Part shown: piece after piece, positions 7,209 through 56,003 of the stretch
Layout: the number at the start of each line of letters is the position of its first letter
How positions within the stretch are numbered: position 1 is the first letter of the stretch
The notes under the pieces: model-generated
The model's input: the letters and a program-made list of their open reading frames with translations, nothing else
The model's database searches: none
What the model was told of the DNA's origin: nothing
Assembly: GCA_016840405.1 (NCBI GenBank)
Contig: JAEOSK010000009.1
Span: 1-64,000, forward strand
Length of the DNA stretch: 64,000 bases
Direction: 5' to 3'
Source: Candidatus Hermodarchaeum yapensis
Lineage (GTDB): Archaea; Asgardarchaeota; Hermodarchaeia; Hermodarchaeales; Hermodarchaeaceae
Program-made: the position numbers and the translations under genes

Positions 7209-7514
7209 ACCTAGATATTATCCTGAAAAGATGCTAGTATTATCAGGGTATTACCGCCAATTGAAAGTGGATAACAAAGGATGTTGAACATGAGAAATCT
7301 TGTGTTCTTTGTGCCTTAAATCGAAAAAGAACGGCTTAATTACAGTATTACCCAAGAGTCGAGCGCAAAGAGGCGAGAATCATGGAATTTGAGCCATTTG
7401 ATGAACACTATTGTTTTAATATTCCCACTAATCTACCTGGGTTGACGAGTTGGCGCCAATAGAGTTAATAAAATTTAAAAAGTGAGGGGATGACGAGATG
7501 GATAAGCCTGCTTT
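7209..7514. other. Intergenic region cdrS to tRNA-Leu
   Basis: The left end holds the divergent cdrS promoter region. A 26-codon frame at 7382-7462 (plus strand) starts MEFEPFDEHY and has a GAGGCGAG ribosome-site-like sequence 4 nt before its ATG; it may be a small gene but has no other support. An AT-rich run near 7468-7482 is a possible TATA element for the tRNA at 7515. Nothing else is recognised. Confidence 0.35.
7219..7250. promoter_or_regulatory. Imperfect inverted repeat upstream of cdrS-ftsZ
   Basis: TATCCTGA and TCAGGGTA form arms (one mismatch) separated by about 16 nt, 10-40 bp upstream of the first cdrS start. The AT-rich spacer could also carry the TATA box of the operon. An RHH protein usually binds such repeats, so an autoregulatory operator is plausible. 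This is inference from position. Confidence 0.3.
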
Positions 7515-7629
7515 GCGGGGGTACCCGAGCACGGTCTATGGAACTTGATAAGAAGTTCCGACTAAAGGGGCAGGACTGAGGCTCCTGTGGTGTAGACCTT
7601 CGTGGGTTCAAATCCCACCCCCCGCACCA
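7515..7629 (+). tRNA. tRNA-Leu (GAG) with D-arm intron
   Basis: Acceptor GCGGGGG pairs with CCCCCGC, followed by A and an encoded CCA. The anticodon stem CAGGA/TCCTG encloses loop CTGAGGC with anticodon GAG at 7578-7580. A long variable arm (GGT/ACC) marks it as class II, and the T arm is GTGGG-TTCAAAT-CCCAC. The D loop carries a 27-nt insertion at 7539-7565 (see separate entry). Without it the D arm becomes CCC-GAGCACGGTCTAA-GGG, a normal archaeal tRNA-Leu form. Confidence 0.93.
7539..7565 (+). other. BHB intron in D arm of tRNA-Leu
   Basis: A perfect 7-bp hairpin (GGAACTT/AAGTTCC, loop GATAAG) sits on a 4-bp helix GGTC/GACT (one G-U pair), with 3-nt bulges TAT (7537-7539) and AAA (7564-7566). 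Cutting after the second base of each bulge removes 27 nt and joins ...GGTCTA to AGGGG. The site is between nucleotides 21 and 22 in tRNA numbering, not the usual 37/38. Such noncanonical introns are removed by archaeal splicing endonuclease of broad specificity. Confidence 0.8.
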
Positions 7630-7680
7630 TTCTCAGTCTACTCAATCTTTTGTTGGTTTTCATAGCGAAAACTGCTCCAA

Positions 7681-7690
7681 TTTATCAAAA
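7681..7690 (+). promoter_or_regulatory. TATA-like box of omegaRNA-like gene A
   Basis: TTTATCAAAA lies about 30 nt upstream of the start of homology between the two omegaRNA-like genes. The identical decamer occurs at the same distance (48 kb away) in front of copy B, while the DNA between box and RNA is not conserved. This is the pattern expected of a shared promoter element. Confidence 0.55.
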
Positions 7691-7712
7691 AAGGAGAAGA
7701 TCCCATTCCTGC

Positions 7713-7906
7713 GGGGCGGAGACGAGTTGTGGAGTTTAAATCGTCCACTGAGAACCTCTCTACAAGGTCCTGGTTCTAGTGGCCGACATCCAAGGTCACT
7801 ATGACCGGACAACATCGCCGGAACGGCTAGCAGATCCTGTGGACCAGTCGACAATGATCGATGGGATGAAGCAGGAAGCCCAGCCCTTCAAGGCGAGGCA
7901 GTTCAC
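7713..7906 (+). ncRNA. Solitary omegaRNA-like ncRNA, copy A
   Basis: About 195 nt, GC-richer than its surroundings, closely related to the copy at 55713-55901 (63 of 70 bases identical over 7810-7879). It has a GCCG-GAA-CGGC hairpin and an ACCAGTCGA...TCGATGG hairpin. It ends with GAAGCAGGAAGC, a terminal hairpin (GCC/GGC arms) and AGTTCAC. This ending is typical of the right end of IS200/IS605-family tnpB elements, whose 3' RNA is the omegaRNA guide of TnpB. No tnpB or transposase frame is present. If it acts as an omegaRNA, the guide would be the bases after 7906. Those bases also carry the GGAG ribosome site of the Roadblock gene. Confidence 0.65.
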
Positions 7907-55567: not shown

Positions 55568-55644
55568 TGGTGGGCCGGACGGGCTTCGAACCCGCGACCT
55601 CTCGGTTATCAGCCGAGTGCCCTACCAAGCTAGGCCACCGGCCC
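55568..55644 (-). tRNA. tRNA-Ile (GAT)
   Basis: Acceptor GGGCCGG/CCGGCCC, A discriminator, encoded CCA. Anticodon stem CTCGG/CCGAG with loop CTGATAA; T arm GCGGG-TTCGAAG-CCCGT. No intron. A short T-run follows the 3' end. Confidence 0.94.
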
Positions 55645-55680
55645 ACATGAAGTACGTGGATGCGCGTAGACTCTTTTCGT

Positions 55681-55690
55681 TTATCAAAAG
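55681..55690 (+). promoter_or_regulatory. TATA-like box of omegaRNA-like gene B
   Basis: TTTATCAAAA, identical to that at 7681, at the same distance from the conserved RNA. The next 30 nt differ between the copies, as expected of a promoter spacer. Confidence 0.55.
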
Positions 55691-55712
55691 CTTTGAGACG
55701 ACTTTTTCTTTA

Positions 55713-55901
55713 GGTCGGGGATGAATCATGGAGGTTAAATACGTTTCTGCAATTCATTTAGTGAGGTCCTAGTCGGGGTCCGAGAACCAAGGAACCTGAC
55801 TGGGCAACATCGCCGGAACGGCGAGTAGAGCCTGTGGACCAGTTGACAGTGGTCGATGGTATGAAGCAGGAAGCTCCATCCTTCGGATGGGGTAGTTCAC
55901 A
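55713..55901 (+). ncRNA. Solitary omegaRNA-like ncRNA, copy B
   Basis: Second copy of the RNA at 7713-7906. The core 55806-55875 has 63 of 70 bases in common. CGCCG-GAA-CGGCG is one base pair longer than in copy A. The central hairpin keeps pairing through a C-to-T change opposite G. The terminal stem CTCCATCC/GGATGGGG is different in sequence but again paired, a sign of covariation. It ends with AGTTCAC. It lies on the opposite strand to its neighbours, so it must have its own promoter. No tnpB is present. Confidence 0.65.
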
Positions 55902-55928
55902 TGGATTTTGCCGAAGCATATTGGGTGT

Positions 55929-56003
55929 TGGTGGAGTGGCCGGGATTTGAACCCGGGGCCTCGTGTGTGCGAGACACGCGATCTACCACTGATCTACCAC
56001 CCC
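55929..56003 (-). tRNA. tRNA-Ala (CGC)
   Basis: Acceptor GGGGTGG/CCACTCC contains the G3-U70 pair, the identity mark of alanine tRNA. Discriminator A and encoded CCA. Anticodon stem CGTGT/ACACG with loop CTCGCAC. No intron. Lies 13 bp downstream of the ValRS stop, same strand. Confidence 0.94.

Follow-up and report, generated by a model that had tools for sequence, protein, structure and literature searches.

The window analyzed in this work, a stretch of 64,000 nucleotides on contig C3 of a 2.7-Mb Hermodarchaeota (Asgard) MAG (G000; 86% complete), contains two copies of a short sequence resembling an omegaRNA gene that stands alone, without tnpB. How such a gene comes to stand alone, and at what its variable 3' end is directed, are the questions raised by the second copy (copy B). 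We consider it likely that copy B is a non-autonomous IS200/IS605-type insertion, similar to palindrome-associated transposable elements (PATEs), whose only gene is an omegaRNA.

Copies in the window and in the genome

Copy B lies between two opposite-strand tRNA genes (Ile, 55568 to 55644; Ala, 55929 to 56003). A DNA search of its own genome with positions 55713 to 55920, the bounds first given to this feature, returned ∼19 significant matches; the element is better bounded as 55685 to 55900 (Table 1). The RNAs of copies A and B share 109 of 143 aligned positions, and the identity first reported for their 70-nt core (63/70) was reproduced. A covariance model (R1) built from the 15 stand-alone copies in G000 (L001 to L015) recovers exactly these 15 plus 8 RNAs at the 3' ends of tnpB genes, with E values below 1e-16 (3e-40 to 2e-17 overall; 1e-21 to 1.5e-17 for the tnpB 3' ends), so that the family proposed from the two window copies does extend across the genome.

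TABLE 1 Positions of the copy A and copy B features in the window (a slash marks an empty-site junction)
Feature	Position	Strand	Evidence or remark
Copy B insertion target TTTAT, presumed TAM, outside the element	55680..55684	+	Also in relatives' empty site (G003, G004: GTTTAT/ATGGGTTTTGCCGA)
Copy B whole mini-element, 216 bp, without a protein gene: left end, presumed promoter, RNA, right end TTCAC	55685..55900	+	Three matching contigs from two congeneric genomes lack the whole block
Copy B palindrome CGACTT...AGGTCG, subterminal at the left end (LE) and weak here	55699..55717	+	Read from the sequence; homologous LE region precedes tnpB genes and other copies
Copy B presumed archaeal TATA box GTTAAATA (consensus TTTAAATA)	55734..55741	+	Pairwise identity 0.78 across copies versus 0.35 in the adjoining linker
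Copy B stand-alone omegaRNA-like scaffold, 138 nt, 5 helices	55763..55900	+	R1 E = 1.0e-37; fold z = -4.2; covariation
Copy B presumed guide ATGGATTTTGCCGAAGCATA, the insertion-site flank	55901..55920	+	Matches relatives' empty site next to TTTAT
Copy A target TTTAT	7681..7685	+	In relatives, GGAGC directly follows TTAT, CTGT, or TTGT
Copy A mini-element, 221 bp	7686..7906	+	All four congeneric genomes lack the whole block
Copy A presumed TATA box TTTAAATC	7735..7742	+	Sequence and copy alignment
Copy A omegaRNA-like scaffold	7764..7906	+	R1 E = 3.5e-34

Empty sites in congeneric genomes

For the empty-site test, the sequences on either side of the G000 copies were joined with the element left out and searched against four congeneric genomes: the Candidatus Hermodarchaeota MAGs YT2_032 (G003), YT1_028 (G002), and H03M_Hermod_104 (G004), and a fourth genome of the comparison set (G001), all of them incomplete. 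The flanks of ten copies (L001 to L004 and L008 to L013) match relatives as continuous DNA at 68 to 87% identity. Junctions are readable to the base at six loci, which include both window copies and L003, L004, and L011, and are less exact at L008, L009, L010, and L013; L005, L006, L007, L014, and L015 gave no clean test, the last two lying outside the joined-flank query. At the copy B locus, relatives carry the empty site TTTAT/ATGGGTTTTGCCGA, and G000 carries TTTAT, the element, and ATGGATTTTGCCGA. In the alignment, the occupied sequence runs from TTTTCGTTTAT through the element (CAAAAGC...TAGTTCAC) into ATGGATTTTGCCGAAGCAT, and the empty sequence in G003 and G004 reads TTTTTCGTTTAT/ATGGGTTTTGCCGATGCA. 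The empty site of L002 is TTTAT/AACCCC or CTTAT/AATCCC, and that of copy A is given in Table 1. The reciprocal case, a G003 insertion whose site is empty in G000, was also found. Exact TTTAT precedes 14 of 25 copies, compared to 4% of random control segments. Insertion 3' of a short fixed pentamer without target duplication is the pattern of IS200/IS605-type elements. As read from these alignments, CAAAA is the left end of the element, and TTTAT is a pre-existing insertion target and presumed TAM.

The initial annotation had taken TTTATCAAAA, equally distant from both RNAs, for a promoter box. In copies A and B it does precede the RNA start by 83 nt, but this is not a rule: across copies with exact TTTAT, the pentamer lies 78 to 86 nt upstream, and it is already present in the relatives' empty sites. 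The promoter reading of TTTATCAAAA was therefore rejected, "TTTATC" being the target site (TAM) followed by the first base of the element.

RNA structure and conservation

The copy B scaffold folds better than all 200 of its shuffles. Across 40 RNAs, both stand-alone and tnpB-linked, 27 pairs were found with 95% of cells paired; their 154 two-sided changes exceed the 49 of the shuffles and the 23 or fewer of the slid controls. For the 27 stand-alone RNAs, 34 pairs were found with 93.6% paired (51 versus 18.6 two-sided changes). Relatedness is left in place by the shuffle control; the slid control removes it and points the same way. In the central helix with its CCA/UGG base, a bulged G is kept while the flanking pairs change on both sides. 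No Rfam match to the RNA was found among the curated RNA models up to E = 1.

When the 15 copies are compared in pairs, the scaffold and the TATA box are on average 0.77 and 0.78 identical, respectively; identity falls to 0.35 in the linker that separates them, to 0.31 upstream, and to 0.26 in the 30 nt past the RNA end (the guides). Since scaffold and linker belong to the same element, and given the divergence of the guides, the RNA is under selection; recent duplication of the copies was rejected on the basis of linker identity. The proposals that this is an omegaRNA-like scaffold with covarying stems under structural selection, and that the family has unrelated 3' ends, were thus upheld. 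The center of the TATA box lies ∼25 nt before the copy B RNA 5' end, and this internal box is likely to be the promoter of that RNA.

The ends of IS605 elements function as folded single-stranded DNA. Covariation could, then, reflect a DNA hairpin kept because the transposase requires it rather than an RNA fold, a reading with which the terminal hairpin and the LE palindrome would agree. However, five covarying helices extend over 138 nt, most of them far from the element end, the fold is common to the omegaRNA region linked to tnpB, and a conserved TATA box sits at the right distance. We find this DNA-level explanation extremely improbable.

Guides and predicted targets

The structured scaffold ends exactly at the right boundary TTCAC and is followed by a flank-derived guide, as in an omegaRNA: the 3' extension of the copy B RNA is the flank of its own insertion site, and it matches the relatives' empty site next to TTTAT. 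The presumed target of the copy B RNA is thus TTTAT plus ATGGATTTTGCCGAAG (TAM plus guide; TTTATATGGATTTTGCCGAAGCAT). It had been suggested to check whether such 3' segments match the chromosome, plasmids, or viruses. For the 15 guides, only their own places rose above chance in a search of G000, which would miss short seed-only matches; the next-best guide match (18/19, E = 0.66) is at chance level. Likewise, an exact-pattern search with one guide, that of copy B, and its TAM gave no match in viral contigs. As such, the initial proposal of an undescribed trans-acting guide system holds in part: a TnpB guide acting in trans is probable, and the genome has many TnpB genes, but a system aimed elsewhere is not supported, as the guides match only their own insertion sites.

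These results also bear on whether the RNAs might be domesticated guides that, in regulation or defense, direct active or dead (TldR-like) TnpB in trans to sequences of the host or of foreign DNA. While a promoter of their own, variable guides, and numerous TnpB genes are what domestication would lead one to expect, the guides are flanking DNA with otherwise chance-level matches in the genome, and the viral contigs lack the copy B target. In addition, no G000 stand-alone copy was found at an orthologous occupied site in another species. A TldR guide RNA, which would target a conserved host promoter together with a TnpB lacking its nuclease residues, is not indicated either: no second genomic target exceeds chance in a search that would miss short seed-only matches, and the intact partner TnpB keeps its catalytic residues (D/E/D). 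We regard domestication as very unlikely.

Relation to tnpB elements and candidate TnpB partners

Upstream of family-I tnpB genes, the order is TTTATC..CGAGAAGA-palindrome-GATGAATC-GGACTTCAAATA, followed by the start codon. Stand-alone copies have the same left part, followed by TTTAAATA and then the RNA, and right ends are alike in the two kinds of element (GAAGCAGGAA-hairpin-TAGTTCAC). Because both parts match, LE and right end (RE) are common to stand-alone and tnpB elements; those of the stand-alone copies are homologous to the ends of the local tnpB elements, although the LE stem is weak in copy B. One kind therefore holds an omegaRNA where the other holds tnpB plus omegaRNA, and the RE of the 8 tnpB genes carries the homologous RNA. 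The 3' half of the RNA is common to both, whereas the 5' domain of the stand-alone RNAs is absent from the tnpB-linked ones. Recognition by the local TnpB family is assumed from this common 3' half.

Several of the 8 tnpB partners are no longer intact. One of the TnpB proteins (L029) is full length (408 amino acids), can be aligned with ISDra2 TnpB across all three catalytic motifs (D, E, and D: GVDVG, VESLN, and DRDINAA), and, among natural TnpBs with solved structures, is closest to the ISDra2 type. G000 as a whole encodes at least 28 TnpB C-terminal domains above the Pfam cutoff (L029 to L056), which belong to several families with differing right ends; many of these genes are broken by stops or frameshifts.

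A search for Y1 transposases (PF01797) gave no match in G000 to G003 and one in G004. The incompleteness of the G000 to G003 MAGs may explain the missing transposase. The G004 transposase (L208, contig C208), the only TnpA seen in the genus, adjoins, in divergent arrangement, a TnpB of another family; this locus was considered as a TnpA source, but, given that other family, it is not an obvious one.

Phylogeny and spread of the stand-alone RNAs

A maximum-likelihood RNA tree separates 27 stand-alone copies from three species from 13 tnpB-linked RNAs by a 100/100 branch. Species are intermixed inside the stand-alone clade, in which most inner forks are weak. A single clade of mixed species with its own 5' domain points to one old self-propagating lineage rather than repeated deletion of tnpB. 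Stand-alone and tnpB-linked RNAs occur together in G000, G002, and G003; G004 has one tnpB-linked RNA only, and G001 has neither.

Alternatively, the copies could be dead MITE or PATE remnants in which the RNA is an unused leftover of a tnpB right end and any movement depends on TnpA alone. Transposase-free, IS605-derived PATEs are known (PMC3119063 and PMC7290912), and the many broken tnpB copies in G000 would fit such decay. Against this, the scaffold retains 0.77 identity and compensatory changes next to a linker at 0.35, the TATA box is kept, and the 27 stand-alone RNAs group in a single clade whose 5' domain is foreign to tnpB elements, which argues against repeated deletion products. Decay of this kind strikes us as unlikely. 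The stand-alone copies are an old RNA-only lineage of PATE type, probably served by TnpB in trans for homing or retention.

In two other Asgard families, a motif scan found copies without an upstream tnpB motif beside tnpB-linked ones, at least 7 in G016 (L209 to L211, L213, L219, and L220 among them) and 3 in G014 (L225, L227, and L228). The G016 copies are near-identical and are probably the product of a recent burst.

Proposed mechanism and comparison with known systems

We propose the following mechanism as the best explanation of the structure, insertion, target, guide identity, and partner gene documented above. Transcription of the RNA would be driven by the internal TATA box and run past the right end into the flank, and TnpB from another element would load the RNA in trans. 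The loaded TnpB would then cut chromosome copies carrying the empty site (TTTAT plus guide), and repair from an occupied copy could restore the element after excision. Movement would require a Y1 transposase, likewise supplied in trans. Cutting by TnpB with copy-back is the simplest mechanism in view of its published retention role, which PMC11870625 summarizes together with a gene-drive test in plasmids. That a satellite without protein cost keeps its RNA fold implies that the RNA itself confers a retention benefit. In its broadest form, the proposal is a long-lived, protein-free Asgard transposon lineage that carries a single gene, for a guide RNA equipped with a promoter and a 5' domain of its own. 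Every copy would turn host or foreign TnpB against chromosomes that lack that copy, amounting to an RNA-only homing drive that parasitizes TnpB and TnpA and has more than one origin in Asgard families; to this extended version we give roughly even chances.

The 3' scaffold of the stand-alone RNAs is the same as in the local tnpB-linked RNAs of IS200/IS605 type. As in the ISDra2 TnpB-omegaRNA system (PMC8612924, PMC10097598), the guide is the right-end flank and the TAM is the left-end insertion target. Unlike in ISDra2, the element carries no tnpB, its RNA has a presumed promoter of its own and a 5' domain that does not derive from cleavage of tnpB mRNA, and the presumed TAM is TTTAT. Altae-Tran and colleagues reportedly described in 2021 stand-alone, trans-acting IscB omegaRNAs at many loci away from the nuclease gene in Ktedonobacter racemifer; the RNAs examined here differ in being TnpB-type, archaeal, and part of a mobile element with empty sites. 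Meers and colleagues are said to have shown in 2023 that TnpB and IscB retain transposons after TnpA excision. The role proposed here, cutting of the empty donor joint, is alike, except that a guide-bearing element must use the TnpB and TnpA of others.

PATEs are known from Haloquadratum and Halanaerobium and, as described in passages of PMC3119063 and PMC7290912, resemble the Hermodarchaeum element in being short and IS605 derived, with subterminal palindromes, no open reading frame (ORF), and no target duplication; many copies occur in Haloquadratum, and mobilization in trans is supposed. In those passages they figure as element ends that lack an RNA gene, some of them products of core deletion, whereas the Hermodarchaeum element has a covarying omegaRNA that is promoter-borne and possesses a separate 5' domain, and it forms an old lineage apart. 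ORF-free, IS605-derived PATEs are, on those descriptions, already known. What seems new, tentatively, is that a PATE-type lineage of Asgard archaea carries a promoter-borne omegaRNA under selection, with its insertion documented. A literature search for RNA-only omegaRNA elements gave only PATE and general TnpB papers, although earlier accounts may lie outside its reach.

The guide RNA half of a TnpB system would thus be able to live as a selfish element, here in an Asgard archaeon, and guides and TAM-bearing empty targets are available as natural pairs for direct testing. Because RNA supply is separate from nuclease supply, the question of why TnpB persists becomes testable. The locus also advises caution: where variable 3' guides lie near structured RNAs, they may represent the flanks of insertion sites and not targeting information that was acquired.

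Genomic neighborhoods

In one neighborhood, L169 (G000, contig C73) and L145 (G003, contig C21) are separate, species-own insertions ∼1 kb apart; beside L169, G003 has ∼0.9 kb of other sequence. Window positions 7392 to 7691 and the left flank of L011, which adjoin two elements, read as intron-containing tRNA genes that were left uncalled by ARAGORN under bacterial settings. In all, 3 of the 15 elements adjoin tRNA or tRNA-like genes.
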